This document shows, in pieces, positions 3,752 to 33,776 of a stretch of 64,000 bases of DNA. Under the pieces are notes generated by a model, which had not been told where the DNA came from, made no database searches, and saw only the letters and a program-made list of their open reading frames with translations. The position numbers and the translations under genes were made by a program. The stretch comes from Brettanomyces bruxellensis (taxonomy: Eukaryota > Ascomycota > Pichiomycetes > Pichiales > Pichiaceae). The DNA is taken from assembly GCF_011074885.1 (NCBI RefSeq), contig NC_054686.1, positions 1,054,001-1,118,000 on the forward strand, read 5' to 3'. How positions within the stretch are numbered: position 1 is the stretch's first letter; each line of letters opens with the position of its first letter.

Positions 3752-5794
3752 ATGTCGAAAAAGGAATCAAAAGGTGGCAACGGCAGTATAAAAGTTACAT
3801 CAGGGAACTCACAAATGGTCAACAATATACCAAAAGGTCCTCGTCACAACAAACTTTCGAATAAGAACGTGAATGAGTCACGAAAAGGTGCAAGAAGGAG
3901 AAGCAACGGCAATCATTCGAAGAGATATCAGCATGCAGAGGCGTCGGATCATTCAGCATCGAGAGGATCGGACTCAGAGAAGAATAGTAGACCAAAGTTA
4001 GTGACAGATGATGACTTCATGCTGAGCAGATCTATTTTGAAATCAAGTAAGAGAGGCATTGATATAAGCCATTTACTTGACTACACGATTGCAGATGATG
4101 AACCAAGAATGTTGGAATCTATCGAAACAGTATCGAGAAGAAGGAGAAAATCACATGGTCGCAGACGTTCCAGTTACAAGAGAAGCCCTAACTTGAACTT
4201 AAGTGGCCGGTATTATATAAACGTCAACTACAAGTTTATAGTGGATTATCGACTATCATACAAGGCGCAGATACTCGACCCAAATATGCCACTTGATGAT
4301 GCCACTATTGTCAGGGTGATAATCAATGGCAAAGACTACCAGTGTCCAATATGTCTCAGCGATGAGTTTGTTGCACCTAGAATGACTTCTTGTGGTCACG
4401 TGTTCTGCTATCCTTGTCTTATACGACTTTTTGCATCGTCAGCAGCCGAGGATGAGAAGAAAACACAGAGAGTTCAACTTCCTGGAAGGCGTTCTGCCAC
4501 TTGCCCACTTTGCAATGATGTGATTCGTGAACACCAGAGATTACTTCCTGTTTTAGTCAACAGAGAAGAGGCAGAGGCACCAGCACCGGATGAATACGCC
4601 AAATTTACGTTAATGTATAGGCCGGCAAACCGAATATTTGCGCAGCCAGTTCAACTTTACTTGGAAAAATCGGAGTTTGAGGGAAATATACCTTGGATCG
4701 AACGTGGTTCAACGCCGACAGACTTTTTTGATACCTCCAAGTATGTCAAGTATTCGAGGCTTATGAAATGTGACGAAAAGTTCATTCTAAGCTGCTTTGC
4801 GAACGAGCTCTCGGCACTTAAGACTCATAAGGAGTATGATAAAGAGGTTTATCATGATTCGGGACTGTATTACGATCTTGCTACAAACAATATAGATGAG
4901 CAGATTCGCAGTACGAAGAAGTCGTTTGCAGAAGAGAAATCTGGGTCAATAGCTGCACCAAATTACAATCATATTGATCATGATGGTGCTTTGACTGAAG
5001 AGGAGATTAACAAACTTTTGATTGAACAGAATAACTACAACTTTGACAAGGAGGAAAAGGGATACTTTTTCTACCAGTGCTTGACCAGCCAAAATTCAAA
5101 GGTGAAGTATTTTCTCTCTGGGTTGGATGTCCAGATATTGAGGGCCATATATGGAGAATACCAGTATTTCCCATTCAATCTAAGAATGAAGCTGGAAAAT
5201 ATATCATATGAGGATGATATAGTCACAGAGGATATGATTCACAGACTGAAGTATGTGGGCCACCTTCCTGTGGGAACTTCTGTTGGATTTTGCCAATTAT
5301 GCTGGATAGAGCCACACAATCATTTAATGCCTCCGGATGTTTTTAGGGAGTTCAAAAAGAGGCTTAAGGAGAGAACCAGAAGCACAAAGGATAGAAAAAG
5401 AAGAGAGGACCACGATAAAAAAGCCTTTGATAAGGAACTTGAGCTAAGAACCTTAAAATTTTATGCGTCTGAGAATAATTTGCCCCTGGAACAGTATGGA
5501 CACTCTGATCCTGCACTAGGTGGGCTATCAACTTCAAGTGTAAATTTGACAGACGAATTTCAGCCAACTTTGACCACCGCTTATGCGGCATCAGAAGAGG
5601 GTATCGATAAGCAAGATACGCAGTTTGGCACATCTGTTTGGGGTACAAAGATTCCTCTGTCTGAAGAAGAACTTAAGCAGAAAGAGGAGGACTCTCAGGA
5701 TATTGAAAGAATTATTCAAGAAGCCAAGACTAGTCAAGGTAAGCAGGGAAAGAAGGGACGGAGAAAGAAAAGAATTGTACTATCTCTTCAGTAG
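3752..5794 (+). CDS. MAG2: Mag2/RNF10-type RING E3 ubiquitin ligase
   Basis: A 680-residue protein with a basic, low-complexity N-terminus and a RING finger at about residues 196-262. The RING reads CPICL, then CGHVFCYPC, then CPLCND after a 35-residue spacer. The C-terminal half has FxF/Y-rich segments typical of RNF10, and the tail is a Lys/Arg-rich stretch. S. cerevisiae Mag2 (about 670 residues) and human RNF10 share this plan. Known role: Mag2 monoubiquitinates small-subunit protein uS3 on non-functional 40S subunits, starting 18S rRNA decay. The ATG at 3752 opens the frame and no other ATG upstream is in frame. The gene is followed in the same direction by the PMT gene. The RING is certain; orthology is strongly supported by the flanking sequence. 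Confidence 0.85.
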   Translation: MSKKESKGGNGSIKVTSGNSQMVNNIPKGPRHNKLSNKNVNESRKGARRRSNGNHSKRYQHAEASDHSASRGSDSEKNSRPKLVTDDDFMLSRSILKSSKRGIDISHLLDYTIADDEPRMLESIETVSRRRRKSHGRRRSSYKRSPNLNLSGRYYINVNYKFIVDYRLSYKAQILDPNMPLDDATIVRVIINGKDYQCPICLSDEFVAPRMTSCGHVFCYPCLIRLFASSAAEDEKKTQRVQLPGRRSATCPLCNDVIREHQRLLPVLVNREEAEAPAPDEYAKFTLMYRPANRIFAQPVQLYLEKSEFEGNIPWIERGSTPTDFFDTSKYVKYSRLMKCDEKFILSCFANELSALKTHKEYDKEVYHDSGLYYDLATNNIDEQIRSTKKSFAEEKSGSIAAPNYNHIDHDGALTEEEINKLLIEQNNYNFDKEEKGYFFYQCLTSQNSKVKYFLSGLDVQILRAIYGEYQYFPFNLRMKLENISYEDDIVTEDMIHRLKYVGHLPVGTSVGFCQLCWIEPHNHLMPPDVFREFKKRLKERTRSTKDRKRREDHDKKAFDKELELRTLKFYASENNLPLEQYGHSDPALGGLSTSSVNLTDEFQPTLTTAYAASEEGIDKQDTQFGTSVWGTKIPLSEEELKQKEEDSQDIERIIQEAKTSQGKQGKKGRRKKRIVLSLQ

Positions 5795-6158
5795 TGCCAT
5801 TGAAAAGGAAGATTTTACTACAAATAATTGATAATGTGGGTTATGTTTACCTTTTTTCACCAAACGAGATCATAAATACGTAAGAAATAATACATTCATT
5901 TATAGAATAAGCAATTGTTATGTTTTGGGAATGGGACTGACTGACTGGACTGAGTAAGCATCGCGTAATTTCGTTTTTTTTTTTATTTTTTTTTTTATTA
6001 ATTTTTTCGCGATTATCTGTGCTAAGGTTTGTTGACAGCACCAACAATCTTCTTACTTTTCAGCATAACGTCGAATTCTCCTATAAGAGATTACTCTGTT
6101 CATTGTCAGGTTTCATAATTGCAGAGAAGAATTTAATTGGACATCGATCGCAGGTAAA
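5795..6158. other. Intergenic region MAG2-PMT with T-rich tract
   Basis: It contains the MAG2 3' flank and the PMT promoter. A T-rich tract with embedded A's (5973-6007) is bracketed by CGCG at 5962-5965 and 6008-6011. No gene seen. Confidence 0.5.
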
Positions 6159-8330
6159 ATGTCTGAGGAAAATGCAGAGTTCATAGGGGAGAAGGGTCCT
6201 CAAAGGAGATATGTTTCGGAACAGCATTCTTTCAGACTTACCCAGATATCTACAAGCCAAAAGATTCAACTATTAATCTTAACAATCCTTGCCTTGATTA
6301 CAAGAGAGTGGAAAATCGATGAGCCATCAACTGTTGTTTTTGATGAGTTGGTTGTTGGTAATTCCGTCAATTCCTATATAAGCCACAAAATTACGTCTGA
6401 CATCAATCCTCCGGCTGGAAAGATAATATACGCCTGGATTGCCAGCTTGTTCAATTATACTATTCCAAAGCTTGGCTTTCGTCCAAATGCGTCCTATGTC
6501 AATGCCGATGGAAATTTGCTATTTCCTTATACTTTGCTCAGAACATTTAGTGCTGTTTGCGGGTCCTCATTGGTTATTTTCATGTACAAAACATTAAGAT
6601 CATCCGGGGTGAGACACTCGATTGCTCTATTTGGTGGATTTCTTGTTCTTTTCGAAAACTCAATTGTGGTTCAATCAAGATTCTTCTTTTTAGATGCCCC
6701 ATTTTTGGCCGCAATCGCCTTTGCCATCTCCTCGATTAAGTCTGGAGACTCTATGAGGACATTCAGTAGAAAATGGCTTGCTTGTCTATTTCTCTCGGCC
6801 ATTTCTCTAGGCTATACCATATCGTTGAAAACATCGGGATTCTTTGTTTTGGTGTGGGCCTTTGCTGTTACAATCAAGCAGATATGGTACATGATCGGAG
6901 ATTTGAAAGTCAAAAAATGCTCGATATGGAGATTCACCGTATTGAAATTCATGTTGTATTTGGTGATTCCAGCTTCAATCTACATCTATTTCTTTTTTGT
7001 TCACATAAACTTGCTAACAGAACGTGGTCCTGCATACGAGGAGTTATCTCCGGAATACCAGAGGAGTTTGATTAACAACCATTTGGAACATGTTTACAAG
7101 GATGTTTTCTACGGATCATCCATCACTCTAAGACATTATACAACTGGAAACTACCTCCATTCGTATGATGCAAAATATAAAAATGGTCACCAACAAGTCA
7201 CTTTGGTTGAGCAATTTGAAGATCCTTTGAATAGATGGTTTTTGGAAGAAGCAGGTACGAACCCTAGTACTGATCTGCTCGAGAGAAATATTTCTATTCC
7301 TTCCTGGGGTAGAGTTCGTCTATACCACAATGGTACAGAAAAGCACTTGAGAGTTGATCCTGATGCTAAGCCTCCTTTATCAGAGCAAGACTACAACAGA
7401 GAGGTGACTGCTTTAGGAAATAACACATGGTTAGGCGATGATTATACCGATTTAGAAGTCAGAATTGCTCCAGATTATTGCAAGACCAATGCATCCAAAG
7501 GAAGAGTCCAGGCAATTGATACAGTTTTTCAGCTCTATAGTCATAGAAAGGGCTGCTTTTTGCTAGGTACTTCAAAAAAGTTGCCCGAAGCTTGGGGACA
7601 CGGACAAAGTGAAGTGCTATGCATTGAATCACCAAAATTTGAAAGATCATTGTGGTACATTGACTCCAACGAACATCCACTATTTGACGAAACCACACCT
7701 ACTGTTGAGTTTAAAAAGCTTTCCTTCTGGGATAAATTTGTTGAATTGAACAAGCTTTTGTTTCGGACGTTGGCATCGAATAAGTTTGATCATCCATTCA
7801 TGTCTAAGCCTAAGGATTGGGTCATGCTGAATAGTGGTATTCCTTATTACTCCGAGGATAACAAATTTGTTTACCTATTTGGTAATGTTATCACATACCA
7901 TCTGGTTGTGCTTTGTGTGTTCTGTTATGCATTATGGCAAATATGTCGCCTTATATTGTGGAATCCACACAAGGAATTACGCTTTAGTGAGAGAACATAC
8001 AAGTACGAGTTTCATGGTCTTGACTACTTTCTTGGATATGTCATCAATCTAATTCCGTACGTCCTTCTTGACCAAACTTTCTTTTTGTTCTGCTATTTGC
8101 CTGCTTTGTATTTTGGTATTCTTTTGGTTGGACAGACTTTCGAACTGATTGTTTCTAAAAGACCAAGCATTGGATACTTATTTACCTGCTTGTGGGCAAT
8201 TGCTGTTTTTTTAACCTTCGTGAAATTTTCACCACTGATCTTTGGTCTTAAATGGAACAAAGAGAATTGCATGTCTCTTTTGCTATTTTCAACCTGGGAT
8301 AACTTCTGTGCCGCTTACAAGGACGAATGA
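6159..8330 (+). CDS. Protein O-mannosyltransferase (PMT family), divergent member
   Basis: A 723-residue multi-pass ER membrane enzyme. PMTs transfer mannose from dolichyl-phosphate-mannose to Ser/Thr of secretory proteins. Visible features: the first luminal loop with the acidic pair FDE (residues 61-63) and an NPPAGK motif; a run of hydrophobic helices (about 80-290) including the LFENSIVVQSRFFFLDAP segment typical of the family; a luminal MIR region (about 315-510) with GSSITLRHYTTGNYLHS and an LYSHRKGCFLLGTSKKLPEAWG repeat; and four more hydrophobic helices to the C-terminus. The usual HPP of the first loop is NPP here, and the loop diverges from Pmt1, Pmt2 and Pmt4. This suggests a Pmt7 (YDR307W)-like or lineage-specific member. 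Ends in KDE, not a standard HDEL signal. The family is certain; the subfamily is open. Confidence 0.88.
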   Translation: MSEENAEFIGEKGPQRRYVSEQHSFRLTQISTSQKIQLLILTILALITREWKIDEPSTVVFDELVVGNSVNSYISHKITSDINPPAGKIIYAWIASLFNYTIPKLGFRPNASYVNADGNLLFPYTLLRTFSAVCGSSLVIFMYKTLRSSGVRHSIALFGGFLVLFENSIVVQSRFFFLDAPFLAAIAFAISSIKSGDSMRTFSRKWLACLFLSAISLGYTISLKTSGFFVLVWAFAVTIKQIWYMIGDLKVKKCSIWRFTVLKFMLYLVIPASIYIYFFFVHINLLTERGPAYEELSPEYQRSLINNHLEHVYKDVFYGSSITLRHYTTGNYLHSYDAKYKNGHQQVTLVEQFEDPLNRWFLEEAGTNPSTDLLERNISIPSWGRVRLYHNGTEKHLRVDPDAKPPLSEQDYNREVTALGNNTWLGDDYTDLEVRIAPDYCKTNASKGRVQAIDTVFQLYSHRKGCFLLGTSKKLPEAWGHGQSEVLCIESPKFERSLWYIDSNEHPLFDETTPTVEFKKLSFWDKFVELNKLLFRTLASNKFDHPFMSKPKDWVMLNSGIPYYSEDNKFVYLFGNVITYHLVVLCVFCYALWQICRLILWNPHKELRFSERTYKYEFHGLDYFLGYVINLIPYVLLDQTFFLFCYLPALYFGILLVGQTFELIVSKRPSIGYLFTCLWAIAVFLTFVKFSPLIFGLKWNKENCMSLLLFSTWDNFCAAYKDE

Positions 8331-26308: not shown

Positions 26309-29005
26309 ATGATTACGGGCACTTCATTTTTCAAACTTCGGCCAATAATAGCTTCTCCTTGCAGGAGACTGGTATCAAGATGCAGCGGTTTGCGAATGGC
26401 ATCATCGACAATTCAACCTGTCTGTTTGAAACGACAATCAATTCTGAAAGAAACTTCTTCTTTTAGAAGTCATCAGATTTTGAGAAGCTTTATGCCCTTG
26501 GTTAATCCTACACATAGTTTAAGTCCTTACGTACGATCAAGTTTGTTCTTGACCCGTATTGGATCTTTACGAACCTTTTCCACTTCCCATTATTCATTAA
26601 GACAGTTGGGAGGAGAGAAGTCGTCATCTAAGCCTGGTAATAAATTGGTCAAGCGCGAAAAGAAATATTGGATGGAAAGATGGTTTGGTTTAACAAAGGA
26701 GCAACGAACTGAAGCTGGTTTCAGTGAGGTGAAAAGGTTACTTTTGCTTGGTAAGCAAGACTGGAGACTGTTCTCTGTGGCAATAGTTCTCTTAATTATT
26801 TCATCGGCAATTGTGATGGCTTTGCCTAAAGTCACAGGATCCATATTAGATGCTACTAAAAAGTATGACAAGCTAGAGGATATTAGTTTATATGGCTTTA
26901 CACTGAACGAGTTTATGGCGATTATGGCAGGTCTATTACTTTTGTCTACGTTCACGACATTTGGTCGTATCATTATTCTTCGAGTTTTAGGTGAGAAACT
27001 TGTTTCCAGGTTGAGATCTAGGATAATGAAAAAGACTTTAAGGCAGGATATGACTTTCTTTGATGAAAACAAGGTGGGTGACTTAATTTCACGTTTATCC
27101 TCTGATGCGTACGTCGTGTCAAAGTCCATTACACAGAACTTGTCGGATGGAATTAAATACACTATTGTTGGTGCGTCGGCTGTTTCGATGATGTTTATGC
27201 TATCACCAAAGTTGTCGGTGATCCTCTTGGCATTTGCACCTCCATTGCTTTTTGCCTCTTATGTTTATGGACTCAAGATTCGTGCAATATCCAGAGCATT
27301 GCAACAATCCACCGGTTCGCTCACAAAAGTTGCCGAAGAGCAGTTAAATTCTATAAAAACGATTCAATCATTTACTGCTGAAACCAAGGAGCTCACAAGA
27401 TACGATGATAGGATTCGTGATGTCTTTCGAATCAGTTATAAAGATGCAGTCACAAATGCGACATTTTTCGCCTCTACTGGTGTGATCGGAAACATAACAC
27501 TATTATTGACCTTGGGACTTGGCACATTCTTTGTTATGGATGGAAGCATGACTGTTGGTGGGTTAACAGCTTACTTGATGTACACTGAGTATTGTGGGAG
27601 CGCAACTTTCGGTATTGCAAACTTCTACACTGAGCTTTTCAAGGGTGCCGGTGCAGCTTCTAGATTGTTTGAACTGTTGGACCAGGACCCGGATATCGAT
27701 GGTGTTGAAGGTGAAAAGTTGAAAACATCAAAGGGCCACATTAAGTTTGAAAAGGTCGACTTCAGCTATCCTACCAGGCCAGATAACATGGTTTTCCGTA
27801 ATCTCAATTTAGAGATAAAGCCGGGCTCAAATGTCTGCATTGTTGGACCGTCAGGCAGGGGAAAATCCACCATTGCATCTCTTCTCCTGAGATTTTACAA
27901 TCCTGATTCGGGAAAGATAACCATTGATGGAGAGGACATTTCAAAATACTCTGTGCATTCAATCCGTCAGGTGATCGGCTTTGTCCAGCAAGAGCCTGTG
28001 CTCATGCCTGGATCAATCCGGGATAATATCGTTTATGGTATGCCTCCTGGTGTGAAAATTACAGGGGATATGATCGAGTGGGCGGCAGCAAAGGCAAATT
28101 GTGATTTTATCGATCAATTTCCAGATCGGTTTGACACAGATATCGGACCTCGTGGCTCATTACTATCCGGTGGTCAGAAGCAGAAAATTGCCATTGCTAG
28201 ATGTTTAATCAAGGAGCCACGTATAATGATACTTGATGAAGCCACTTCGGCTTTGGATTCACGATCTGAAAATGCTATTAACACGACACTTGCTCGCTTG
28301 CTTCGGGACCAATCGATGACTACAGTATCCATTGCCCATCGGAAGTCGACAATTGAGAAATGTGATGATGTATTAGTTCTTGGATATGATGGAAATATCG
28401 TTGAGGAAGGACGTTATGATGAGTTATACTCGAACAAAGACTCTCGTTTATACAAGTTGCTGAATGAGACATCGCCGAATAATGTGGCATCGGAAGCACA
28501 GCTACGGAAGAAGGAGAGTGAGAGGAAACGGAAGGAAGAAGAAGCTCTCAAAGAATGTGAAACGAAACCCACGGTATTAAGTAAGGAGGAAGTGGAAAAA
28601 CTATCGTTGGAGGAGCGAAGTTTGGCTGCGGAGAACTTCAGCGAAGAAGGAGTTGAAATGAATGATGAGTTTGGCCATAAACTTATGATTCCTCATCATG
28701 TTGGCACGGAAGAATTTATCTTGCATGCAGCAGCTGATCGTGAGGAAGCAGAAAAGATAAGACTCAAGGAAGAGAAACAGCAGGAGAAAAAGAAAAAGAA
28801 AATGGAGGAAGAAGAGTCCAAAAAGAATAATGAGGAATCCCAAAGCGATCCTGACTCAGCCAAAAAGAATGAGTCCGATACTGTTACTGATGATAGCACT
28901 GACAGTACCGATAAACCTGCAAAGGAAGCTGATTCGGATGCTGCCAATGAGTCTCAATCAAAAGAGAGTAATAAAACAGGAACGGAGGAAAAGGTTCGAA
29001 CATGA
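26309..29005 (+). CDS. Mitochondrial ABC half-transporter, Mdl1/Mdl2 type, with long charged C-terminal tail
   Basis: 898 residues from the ATG at 26309; the longer frame from 26246 would need a TTG start. The first 100 residues are Arg/Ser-rich with almost no acid, as expected for a mitochondrial presequence. A six-helix ABC transmembrane domain (about 150-440) contains FDENKVGDLISRLSSDA and the TKVAEEQLNSIKTIQSF intracellular loop, as in Mdl1/Mdl2. The nucleotide-binding domain has Walker A GPSGRGKST (about 512), Q-loop FVQQEP, signature LSGGQKQK (about 620), Walker B IMILDEATSALD and the H-loop IAHR. Mdl1 exports peptides from the matrix in yeast; Mdl2 supports respiration. After about residue 720 there is a 175-residue Glu/Lys/Ser-rich, partly coiled-coil tail that is not usual for the family. 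Mdl1 versus Mdl2 is unresolved. Confidence 0.9.
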   Translation: MITGTSFFKLRPIIASPCRRLVSRCSGLRMASSTIQPVCLKRQSILKETSSFRSHQILRSFMPLVNPTHSLSPYVRSSLFLTRIGSLRTFSTSHYSLRQLGGEKSSSKPGNKLVKREKKYWMERWFGLTKEQRTEAGFSEVKRLLLLGKQDWRLFSVAIVLLIISSAIVMALPKVTGSILDATKKYDKLEDISLYGFTLNEFMAIMAGLLLLSTFTTFGRIIILRVLGEKLVSRLRSRIMKKTLRQDMTFFDENKVGDLISRLSSDAYVVSKSITQNLSDGIKYTIVGASAVSMMFMLSPKLSVILLAFAPPLLFASYVYGLKIRAISRALQQSTGSLTKVAEEQLNSIKTIQSFTAETKELTRYDDRIRDVFRISYKDAVTNATFFASTGVIGNITLLLTLGLGTFFVMDGSMTVGGLTAYLMYTEYCGSATFGIANFYTELFKGAGAASRLFELLDQDPDIDGVEGEKLKTSKGHIKFEKVDFSYPTRPDNMVFRNLNLEIKPGSNVCIVGPSGRGKSTIASLLLRFYNPDSGKITIDGEDISKYSVHSIRQVIGFVQQEPVLMPGSIRDNIVYGMPPGVKITGDMIEWAAAKANCDFIDQFPDRFDTDIGPRGSLLSGGQKQKIAIARCLIKEPRIMILDEATSALDSRSENAINTTLARLLRDQSMTTVSIAHRKSTIEKCDDVLVLGYDGNIVEEGRYDELYSNKDSRLYKLLNETSPNNVASEAQLRKKESERKRKEEEALKECETKPTVLSKEEVEKLSLEERSLAAENFSEEGVEMNDEFGHKLMIPHHVGTEEFILHAAADREEAEKIRLKEEKQQEKKKKKMEEEESKKNNEESQSDPDSAKKNESDTVTDDSTDSTDKPAKEADSDAANESQSKESNKTGTEEKVRT

Positions 29006-30049: not shown

Positions 30050-30730
30050 ATGATTTCATCGGCTGCCGTTCTTCTTCAGAAGGAACTGAAGGATTTATCA
30101 AAGAATCAACCCTGTTTCTACATTCAGCTTCAGAATGATAACATCTATGATTGGGATGTGGGTCTTTACATCGATAATTCTGATTCTAAATACAATGGAG
30201 CTTTTCTGAGAGGTAAGATGCAGTTTCCTCGAAACTATCCATTTGCCCCTCCTACCTTCAGGTTTACTCCAGCCATTTTCCATCCAAATGTTTACACGGA
30301 TGGGCGTCTATGCATATCCATTTTGCATAGGGCTGGCGATATCTATAATGATGAACCATCAAATGAAACCTGGAGTCCAGCACAGTGTGTGGAGTCCATC
30401 CTTATCTCCATACTTTCAGTTTTAGATGATCCTAATATAAATTCGCCAGCCAATGTTGATGCGGCAAAACTTTTCAGAGATGACAGGGAGGCCTATTATC
30501 GTAAAGTTGCCAAAGATGTTGCCAGATCAAAAGAGGATATACCCGCGGATTTCAATATACCAGATCCATCCACAAAGAAGTTGGAGGATGAATATGAAGA
30601 TGAATGGTTCTATGATGAGGATGACGACGATGACGACGACGATGATGACGATGACGATGATCAAAGCTTATATGATGATGATGTGGAAATGAGTGAAGAT
30701 TACGGTGATACTGAGGGTGGAAAAAAATAG
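30050..30730 (+). CDS. CDC34: Cdc34/Ubc3 ubiquitin-conjugating enzyme (E2 of SCF ligases)
   Basis: 226 residues from the ATG at 30050; the upstream 15 codons have only a TTG start. The UBC fold (about 1-165) contains the HPN motif, the catalytic Cys 88 in GRLCISILH, and the 12-residue acidic insertion GDIYNDEPSNETW that marks the Cdc34/UBE2R class. The C-terminal tail (from about 185) is highly acidic, with an Asp run at about 190-205 encoded by GAC/GAT repeats (30619-30660). Known role: with SCF complexes it builds Lys48 chains on Sic1 and cyclins at G1/S, and the acidic tail docks on Cul1. The tail is shorter than in S. cerevisiae (295 residues) but keeps its acidic character. Confidence 0.94.
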   Translation: MISSAAVLLQKELKDLSKNQPCFYIQLQNDNIYDWDVGLYIDNSDSKYNGAFLRGKMQFPRNYPFAPPTFRFTPAIFHPNVYTDGRLCISILHRAGDIYNDEPSNETWSPAQCVESILISILSVLDDPNINSPANVDAAKLFRDDREAYYRKVAKDVARSKEDIPADFNIPDPSTKKLEDEYEDEWFYDEDDDDDDDDDDDDDDQSLYDDDVEMSEDYGDTEGGKK

Positions 30731-31497: not shown

Positions 31498-31632
31498 TTA
31501 AGCAATGGTGCACATGTTGTTCTCATGGTAGAAGTTACCATGAACATAGTTCCACCAGGTGTTGTAGTCTTCATCATCCTGAGAAGGAGCATCGGTAGTT
31601 GAGTTTTGGGTGGCAGAGATCTTGGAGTTCAT
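31498..31632 (-). CDS. Putative a-factor mating pheromone precursor (CaaX lipopeptide)
   Basis: A 44-residue ORF whose only in-frame ATG is at 31632. It ends in the CaaX box CTIA, directly comparable to CVIA of S. cerevisiae Mfa1/Mfa2. The N-terminal half is Ser/Thr/Gln/Asn-rich (MNSKISATQNSTTDAP), like an a-factor pro-region. A short acidic hinge (DDED) leads to an aromatic-rich C-terminal segment (YNTWWNYVHGNFYHENN) before the Cys. Codons are of the C-ending kind favoured in highly expressed genes (AAC, TTC, TAC, ACC, ATC, AAG). The 5' leader is A-rich, a TATA box lies 112 nt upstream, and TGAAAC pheromone-response cores lie further upstream. Known maturation of a-factor: farnesylation, aaX removal by Ste24/Rce1, Ste14 carboxyl methylation, N-terminal trimming and Ste6 export. 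Alternative: another small prenylated protein. Confidence 0.72.
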   Translation of the reverse strand: MNSKISATQNSTTDAPSQDDEDYNTWWNYVHGNFYHENNMCTIA

Positions 31633-31743
31633 TTTGTTTGTTTGTGTTGTTAGAGTAGAGGATTTGTTGGTTTTTGTTGATGATAAAGGAAATGGGAATC
31701 TGATATCCAAAAAAAAAGTTCCTATGTAAAGAAATATTTATCG

Positions 31744-31751
31744 TATTTATA
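31744..31751 (-). promoter_or_regulatory. TATA box of the a-factor candidate
   Basis: TATAAATA on the minus strand, 112 nt upstream of the ATG at 31632, a distance usual for budding yeast core promoters. Confidence 0.6.
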
Positions 31752-31899
31752 CTTAATCTCATGGCAGTTAATTGCCTCGAGGGTAGTGAAATATTGCAGC
31801 AGCAGTCCTATTGAAGTATCCGCATTAGGAAATATGTCTGGTTTCTCGCGACAGTATAATTAAAACGATAACTCGAATTTTCATTTTAATAATTAGCGC

Positions 31900-31947: not shown

Positions 31948-32288
31948 TGAAACGTTAAATAGCAAAGTCGTTCATTTGATCTGCATGATATTCGTTCATT
32001 TTTCCTTTTGGGTTAATTCAATGCACCAAACCTGATTATCGATTTTGTTTCCTTCGGATGATTTTTTTTTGCCAAAATAGTAATCCTCAAGAGAAATCAC
32101 CTTGCATCGCATCCTATGGATATTACTTTTTTAGTGATATTGCCGGATAACATCAAATTAAAAGCAAGTTTCATGTTTCAAATAGAAAAATGACGAGCAT
32201 GTGACTATTTCTATAATGCTGAGAAACAAACTAGGATATGTCAAGATAAATCTCTACTAGAACCATTATAGAACAGTAGACTGAAACA
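31948..32288. promoter_or_regulatory. Cluster of pheromone-response-like elements (TGAAAC cores)
   Basis: Four cores upstream of the a-factor candidate: TGAAAC at 31948-31953 (+), a tandem TGAAACATGAAAC read on the minus strand (32180-32168), and TGAAACA at 32282-32288 (+). TGAAACA is the Ste12-bound pheromone response element of S. cerevisiae, which works best in multiple copies. Confidence 0.5.
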
Positions 32289-32801: not shown

Positions 32802-33776
32802 TTACGCGAAGTGGATACCTACCTGGTGAAATGCGTATAATAGCTTGAGAAAAGCCACTTGATCCATCTTGGAAGCCCTTTGTTCCGCGAATCCTGTTTC
32901 CGTTAACACCTTATTTACATTTTGTTTCACCAATGATTCGACATCGTTATTAGATTCAATGGACATATCTCCGTTCTGCTCGATTGTGTAGGCCAAGTAC
33001 CTCTTGTAGTTCTCTTCCAATATTGCTGTTATCTTCTTGTTCCTGAATATAGCACCCAACGTTTTGTTCTTTCGGTTAAAACAAAGACGTAGTAATCCAT
33101 CCCATTCACTATAATTAAGATTAGGTCTTGGGATTTTCGGTATCACTTTGACCACTGATGATTCCACCTTTGGAGGAGGTCTGAAATTGTTTTTTCCCAC
33201 CTTCATAACGTGTTTCACGTTAGCCCACATCTGAGCATTTGCACTTAAACGATTGTAGAGGTTGTCACCTGGCCTGGCAGTGAGATTCATTGCAAATTCT
33301 CTTTGAAACATGAGAACTGCAATTCTCGGAGGATGCTCCATTTCAAGCAATCTAAAAACGATTCCTGACGATATCTGATACGGTGTATTTGAAATACAAA
33401 CATCAAAATAAGGAAGCTCCTTCATTTTCATAAAGTCACCAACAGTAATTTCCAACTTCTTTTCAACAGGTGTCCCTTGAACCCTTTTTAAAAGTTCCCC
33501 AGCCATTCTTGGATCAACTTCGATAGCAATAACTTTGCGTGCCTTCTCCAAAATTCGCATGGTAAGATTACCGGTACCAGGTCCAATTTCTAAAACAACA
33601 TCTGATGGCCTTATTTCTGCTTTGTCAACGATTGCCTGTGCGATTTGAGGGTTCTTTAAGATATGCTGACCGAGATTTGTGTTGAACTTGAAAACTCGGT
33701 TGATTTGATTAGCAGCCGATGGAGTTTTTCTGCTTCCAAGCTGCTTCCTGGCTGATTTCGGCATTCTATGTGACAT
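32802..33776 (-). CDS. DIM1: 18S rRNA dimethyladenosine transferase Dim1
   Basis: 324 residues (318 in S. cerevisiae). The KsgA/Dim1 Rossmann methyltransferase fold is clear: [11 protein letters not shown]-terminal motif, SAM-binding [10 protein letters not shown] (about 62-71), acidic EVDPRM, DFMKM, and the catalytic NTPYQISS motif (NxPY) near residue 131. The C-terminal helical domain has [19 protein letters not shown] and [13 protein letters not shown]. Known role: it dimethylates two adjacent adenines in the 3' terminal loop of 18S rRNA and also acts structurally in pre-40S cleavage. A basic N-terminal stretch is nuclear-targeting in character. The ATG at 33776 is used; a second Met four codons in is possible. 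It is divergent from the small ORF at 34059, separated by a 37-A tract. Confidence 0.96.

Follow-up and report, generated by a model that had tools for sequence, protein, structure and literature searches.

In Saccharomyces cerevisiae, the mating pheromone a-factor is encoded by MFA1 and MFA2, whose products are small precursors with a CaaX end, a polar pro-region and an Asn preceding the mature peptide, and which follow the Ram1, Ste14, Ste6 and Ste3 pathway. A search by gene order has added ten unannotated MFA genes and stressed their short length, divergence and movement; the MFA genes of budding yeasts code for 32-38 amino acids (aa), and several species carry more than one copy (PMC3161974; here and below, the papers cited by PMC number are drawn on in part). 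Pichia kudriavzevii, a member of the Pichiaceae, has a 41-residue MFa (PKUD0C04775) which ends in CTIA and has a pseudogene next door (PMC6053246). In Ogataea polymorpha, MFa was annotated only after overexpression of STE12, its published coordinates imply 36 codons, the induced a-specific genes were BAR1, AXL1, ASG7, RAM1, RAM2 and STE6, and apart from MAT no genes were found to be constitutively a-specific (PMC5720833). Here we describe an open reading frame (ORF) of 44 codons in a 64,000-nucleotide stretch of Brettanomyces bruxellensis DNA (the window; contig NC_054686.1, positions 1,054,001 to 1,118,000), which, judging from its peptide and its promoter, is very probably the a-factor (MFA) gene of this yeast. 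Since genes of this kind are known from other yeasts, the candidate would be a new member; what is new is the gene itself and the apparent extension of an operator to the enzymes of modification. A literature search for Brettanomyces together with a-factor and pheromone gave no paper that, judging by its listing, deals with this gene. Candidates are said to have been found by Srikant et al. in 2023 in 241 of 332 yeast genomes surveyed, and these may already include this gene.

An earlier note on this DNA, made from the letters alone, had called a 44-codon a-factor gene here, and the ORF lies exactly where it was placed, on the minus strand. Its peptide is MNSKISATQNSTTDAPSQDDEDYNTWWNYVHGNFYHENNMCTIA, followed by the stop TAA. 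The Ser/Thr-rich start, the acidic hinge (a DDED stretch), the end rich in WW, Tyr, His and Asn, and the CTIA box can all be read in the sequence as that note had described them. The features of the gene and of its promoter are the following:

31498 to 31632, minus strand: candidate MFA gene, a-factor precursor ORF of 44 codons (ORF read directly, codon usage, single match in its own genome)
31501 to 31512, minus strand: CaaX box CTIA (Cys41-Thr-Ile-Ala44), predicted farnesylation site (sequence read; same box in P. kudriavzevii MFa)
31510 to 31560, minus strand: predicted mature peptide Thr25-Cys41, if cut after Asn24 (by analogy with S. cerevisiae)
31633 to 31692, minus strand: A- and C-rich leader, immediately 5' of the ATG (promoter sequence)
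31746 to 31751, minus strand: TATAAA, 114 bp upstream of the ATG (promoter read)
31809 to 31837, plus strand: a2-Mcm1-like operator TATTGAAGTATCCGCATTAGGAAATATGT, 177 bp upstream and inverted relative to the gene (pattern and matrix tests)

With 44 aa, the precursor is short, three residues longer than that of P. kudriavzevii and longer than the 36 codons of O. polymorpha, and it ends in a CaaX box. This pheromone-like end, on which the earlier note had relied, is present, but it is not peculiar to this gene, as P. kudriavzevii MFa shares it. Like MFA1 and MFA2 of S. cerevisiae, the candidate is a small CaaX precursor with a polar pro-region, an Asn before the predicted mature peptide and probably the same pathway; it differs from them by ending in CTIA instead of CVIA, by a longer predicted mature part rich in Asn, His and Tyr, and by being a single gene. 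Asn24 stands at the position of the Asn that precedes the mature peptide of S. cerevisiae and may mark the N-terminal processing site. No hydrophobic stretch was seen in residues 1-24 by reading (no signal-peptide program was run), and the pro-region is polar.

The codon usage of the candidate was compared with a reference set of 652 codons from TEF1-like, NHP6-like and RPP1-like genes. Its codon adaptation index (CAI) is 0.672, compared with 0.234-0.421 for the 20 window ORFs of at least 200 aa, which agrees with the claim of the earlier note that codons of highly expressed genes are used. Only one of 2,663 stretches of 44 codons from those long ORFs scored as high, and the same value was reached by 2 of 20,000 synonymous recodings of the peptide drawn from the average usage of the 20 ORFs. 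Among the 249 window ORFs of 30-70 aa, no other one has a CAI this high or a strict CaaX end, and the ORFs overlapping the candidate on either strand have CAI values of 0.275-0.333. A wider scan of 273,423 bp took in 1,553 ORFs of 25-100 aa (1,542 distinct); the loci scanned overlap in part, some had been fetched for operator-like matches, and together they make up about 2% of the genome. Strict CaaX ends were found in two of these ORFs, the candidate and one with a CAI of 0.188, and loose ones in four, with CAI values of 0.144-0.188 for the three others; besides the candidate, a CAI of at least 0.6 was seen only in the NHP6-like gene of the reference set. A 44-aa protein from a 557-bp ENA contig, the sole protein-database match at E up to 10, is identical to the candidate at 43 of 44 positions, with a conservative change of Tyr35 to Phe; conservation of the mature peptide and of the CaaX box was thus compared with one near-identical sequence only. 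The one Pfam hit of the ORF, HTH_71 (E 0.04, 14.3 bits versus a cut-off of 27), is below threshold and was taken as chance. A near-match search of a plasmid collection with the candidate locus gave no match, which is what one would expect of yeast DNA.

Evidence in cis for a-specific control of the candidate comes from an operator that it shares with STE2 and STE6. A 29-bp element, first noticed on reading the promoter sequences and put to the test afterwards, is common to STE6 (CATTGAGACTGCCCAAATTGGAAATTTGT), STE2 (CATTGGAGTGTCCCAATTGGGGAATTTCG) and, in inverted orientation, the candidate (TATTGAAGTATCCGCATTAGGAAATATGT); an unsupervised k-mer comparison of the three promoters did not bring it up. 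It consists of an ATTG core, six bases and a CC-N6-GG box. The ATTG core is of the type bound by HMG proteins and the CC-N6-GG box of the type bound by Mcm1, which also has a role at the a-specific sites of Candida albicans and Kluyveromyces lactis. A/C-rich leaders such as that of the candidate mark strongly expressed yeast genes. In a search of the 13.1-Mb genome that skips simple repeats, the strict pattern ATTGNNNNNNCCNNAWTNGGNAATWT matched exactly three places, the promoters of STE2, STE6 and the candidate. With one mismatch allowed there were three further places, and none for a reversed-pattern control. These three, not taken as a-specific genes, are a site some 130 bp upstream of a glutathione-transferase-like ORF (named by eye), one inside a 751-aa ORF, and one (at about 4842 of its locus segment) some 0.4 kb before a B-type-cyclin-like ORF (5247-6740, also named by eye), which is perhaps a plain Mcm1 site.

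The looser core ATTGNNNNNNCCNNNNNNGGNAAW (ATTG-N6-CC-N6-GG-N-AA-W) gave 22 genome matches versus 6 for the reversed control. Fourteen of them lie inside ORFs of at least 150 aa and were taken as chance, and five of the eight outside precede STE2, STE6, the candidate, a RAM1-like gene and a STE14-like gene, at about 317, 186, 177, 82 and 223 bp from the respective ATG. The last two genes are:

ORF 73-1419, operator core 1501-1524 (locus segment): RAM1-like farnesyltransferase beta (PF00432, E 4.3e-99)
ORF 580-1278, operator core 1501-1524 (locus segment): STE14-like isoprenylcysteine methyltransferase (ICMT; PF04140, E 7.6e-29)

Among solved structures, the RAM1-like protein matched farnesyltransferase beta at 9.3e-77 versus 5.6e-32 for the best entry of geranylgeranyltransferase I only. 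Its operator is inverted as at the candidate, and orientation is therefore no objection to the candidate operator. Because the pattern was made without the RAM1-like and STE14-like genes and both of these belong to the modification pathway of a-factor, we take the shared element to be a real a-cell operator. Its reach to these two genes is the least expected part of the finding; no statement on the control of STE14 was found in the portions of literature consulted. Two side observations concern such sites. One core match (1501-1524 of its locus segment) lies 143 bp before a 367-aa ORF without a Pfam family, which could be a further a-specific gene. The candidate promoter also has a weaker second operator-like match at 31995-32023 (minus strand), with 14 of 18 columns and a CC-GG spacing one base short.

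Of the pathway that an a-factor needs, the exporter Ste6, the receptor Ste3, farnesyltransferase beta and ICMT were all found in the same genome as the candidate. STE2, STE3 and STE6 were located by family searches; their frames are open, and STE2 and STE3 score over the Pfam cut-offs. The STE6-like frame has 1,289 aa; no other of the 15 PF00664 (ABC_membrane) matches combines two domains with such a size, the remaining two-domain frames having 1,467-1,662 aa. Its best matches among solved structures, P-glycoproteins, cover most of it, and an entry named as the a-factor exporter (7qkr) is among the 45 rows. An ABC transporter in the window (26309-29005) was ruled out as Ste6 because it has only one membrane and one ATPase domain. 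Among the 12 matches listed for Ste3, the nearest one with a name is from Brettanomyces nanus (56%, covering 80% of the query); others are at 99, 86 and 54%, and Martiniozyma is at 36%. This fits the placing among the Pichiaceae that the earlier note had assumed, and its call of an a-factor gene gains from the operator common to STE2, STE6 and the two enzyme genes as well as from STE3, STE6 and a probable MATa locus in one genome. Peptidase_M16 was found in eight places; of the two examined, the 1,185-aa frame (contig 6) was taken as AXL1-like and the 1,147-aa frame (contig 9) as STE23-like, by length and eye only, and the best operator score upstream of the STE23-like gene is 10.22, which is not taken as an operator. 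Searches with PF04769 (MATalpha1) and PF05436 (alpha-factor N-terminus) gave no match; since the control searches gave nothing either, absence is not established.

The probable MATa locus adjoins SLA2 on contig 7, near 655,100-656,900, and holds two genes:

125-811 (locus segment), minus strand: homeodomain protein of 228 aa, MATa1-like (PF00046, E 5.4e-14)
1142-1821, intron 1418-1488 (locus segment), plus strand: divergent HMG-like gene, MATa2-like (splice signals read)

The 71-bp intron of the second gene has the signals GTAAGT, TACTAAC and TAG, and the spliced product of 202 aa resembles an HMG box that the intron interrupts. An HMG_box search gave five places in the genome, the MAT-like locus with its interrupted box not among them. 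Two database proteins match the MATa2-like gene. One reproduces the unspliced first frame exactly and is therefore the same sequence again, without added support; the other, 69% identical over 55% of the query with the second exon in frame, supports that exon. Because of its position, neighbour and intron, the gene is probably MATa2. Activation of a-specific genes by MATa2 has been reported across a broad range of yeasts, C. albicans and K. lactis among them, whereas S. cerevisiae uses repression by alpha2 (PMC5748462); the control proposed here is MATa2 activation through the ATTG core and CC-N6-GG box, and in contrast to C. albicans and K. lactis the same predicted operator also precedes the STE14-like gene. 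Two MAT loci have been described in B. anomalus by Krassowski et al. (PMC6692504), and bruxellensis is not mentioned in the main text of that paper.

Several observations weigh against an a-factor gene under such control. The columns of both search patterns were picked after the candidate site had been seen, which for the strict pattern called for fairer tests. In a blind test on the 18 columns that agree between STE2 and STE6, the candidate matches 14, a number reached by 21 of 1,000 Markov-simulated promoters of 1,169 bp and by 5 of 1,000 of 400 bp; seven fetched sequences held seven sites with exactly 14 matches, candidate included, and one other with 16. In favour of the candidate site, it scores 18.63 with a matrix built from the four other sites, within the range of the leave-one-out scores of those four (13.22, 15.80, 18.07 and 20.15). 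Two of 315,788 background positions score at least as high, and so do 5 of 2,000 random 400-bp draws and 14 of 1,000 random 1,169-bp draws, in which draws overlapping the candidate site were skipped yet kept in the total. One of the two background positions is, by its coordinates, a site scoring 18.80 (6002-6030 of its locus segment), 1,073 bp upstream of the alpha-specific STE3; it is probably a chance match, and an equally good site so far from STE3 means that single sites do arise by chance. The three other core matches outside ORFs have no visible link to mating or lie far from a gene, the remaining one being 772 bp upstream of an ORF that by eye is permease-like. No operator was found upstream of the AXL1-like gene (best score 8.41). 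TGAAACA pheromone response elements 542 and 650 bp upstream of the candidate are weak evidence, as the STE3 upstream region likewise has two. By family searches the case for MATa2 is weak: the MATa2-like product has no Pfam match, and among solved structures only LEF-1 was found, at E 0.12. A search of the genome (13.1 Mb, 9 contigs) with the ORF gave one match, itself, on contig 5; there is no second copy or pseudogene at E up to 10, unlike in P. kudriavzevii with its neighbouring pseudogene. Finally, BLASTP gave no alignment with S. cerevisiae MFA1 (precursor sequence entered by hand) at E up to 100. The unlikeness to S. cerevisiae a-factor that the earlier note had remarked is borne out by this, but it does not make the peptide special, divergence being normal among a-factor genes (PMC3161974).

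An ORF this short could have arisen by chance in intergenic DNA, the more so as strict CaaX ends do turn up that way, once more among the 1,553 small ORFs. Because of the codon bias, which so few recodings equal, a chance ORF is very unlikely, and we give it next to no weight; the operator, TATAAA and leader are also suitably placed, and the second sequence is identical at all but one position. The ORF might also encode a strongly expressed small CaaX protein other than a pheromone, such as a membrane-anchored a-cell regulator under the same control as the mating genes. It takes more than a CaaX end to define a pheromone, and codon bias and operator point only to an expressed a-cell gene; however, the length, the polar pro-region and the operator common to the STE6, RAM1-like and STE14-like genes speak against this alternative, no other well-coded CaaX ORF occurs in the 273 kb (2% of the genome) examined, and the published Pichiaceae gene of similar size and end is MFa (PMC6053246). 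We regard this alternative as highly improbable. Somewhat more room, though still little, is left for a relict, an a-factor gene by origin whose lineage has given up mating. No mating data were found for this strain, but the frame is intact, its codon bias is very high and its operator is preserved, the STE2, STE3 and STE6 frames are open, and the second database sequence departs from the candidate by a single conservative change.

We prefer the reading as an a-factor gene, and infer its expression, processing and pheromone activity as follows. In MATa cells, the MATa2 HMG protein together with Mcm1 would bind the operator at 31809-31837 and switch on the candidate jointly with STE2, STE6, RAM1 and STE14. 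The 44-residue precursor would be made without an evident signal sequence, and, by analogy with the S. cerevisiae pathway, farnesyltransferase (Ram1/Ram2) would add a farnesyl group at Cys41, a CaaX protease would take off TIA and Ste14 would methylate the newly exposed end. Cleavage by N-terminal proteases, probably after Asn24, would free the lipopeptide of about 17 residues (Thr25-Cys41) from the Ser/Thr-rich and acidic part, for export by Ste6 to Ste3 on alpha cells. We further lean towards the view that in Brettanomyces the entire production of the pheromone forms a cell-type regulon driven by one a2-Mcm1 operator. This regulon would comprise the peptide and its exporter, farnesyltransferase beta and the carboxyl methyltransferase, as well as the receptor that senses the opposite pheromone.

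About 2 kb around the candidate are free of other long ORFs. Its neighbours are:

30050 to 30730, plus strand: ubiquitin-conjugating enzyme, CDC34-like by eye, convergent and outside the system (PF00179)
32802 to 33776, minus strand: rRNA adenine dimethylase, DIM1-like, tandem upstream gene that bounds the promoter (PF00398)

The ubiquitin-conjugating enzyme has an acidic tail, with a long aspartate run at its end.

RAM1 and STE14 are housekeeping genes in S. cerevisiae. The operator before their counterparts suggests that in this yeast cell type may command the modification pathway and not the substrate alone; if true, a cells would raise the level of such housekeeping-type enzymes, and the yeast would have kept its a-cell programme complete and under selection. 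Brettanomyces is known from wine and beer and has little established genetics. Genes for a-factor are difficult to find, being short and divergent (PMC3161974). A pheromone gene together with receptor, exporter, probable mating-type genes and operator would give a direct handle on sex in Brettanomyces: expression could serve to tell the mating type, alpha strains could be exposed to a synthetic lipopeptide, and crosses under control would become a concrete aim.
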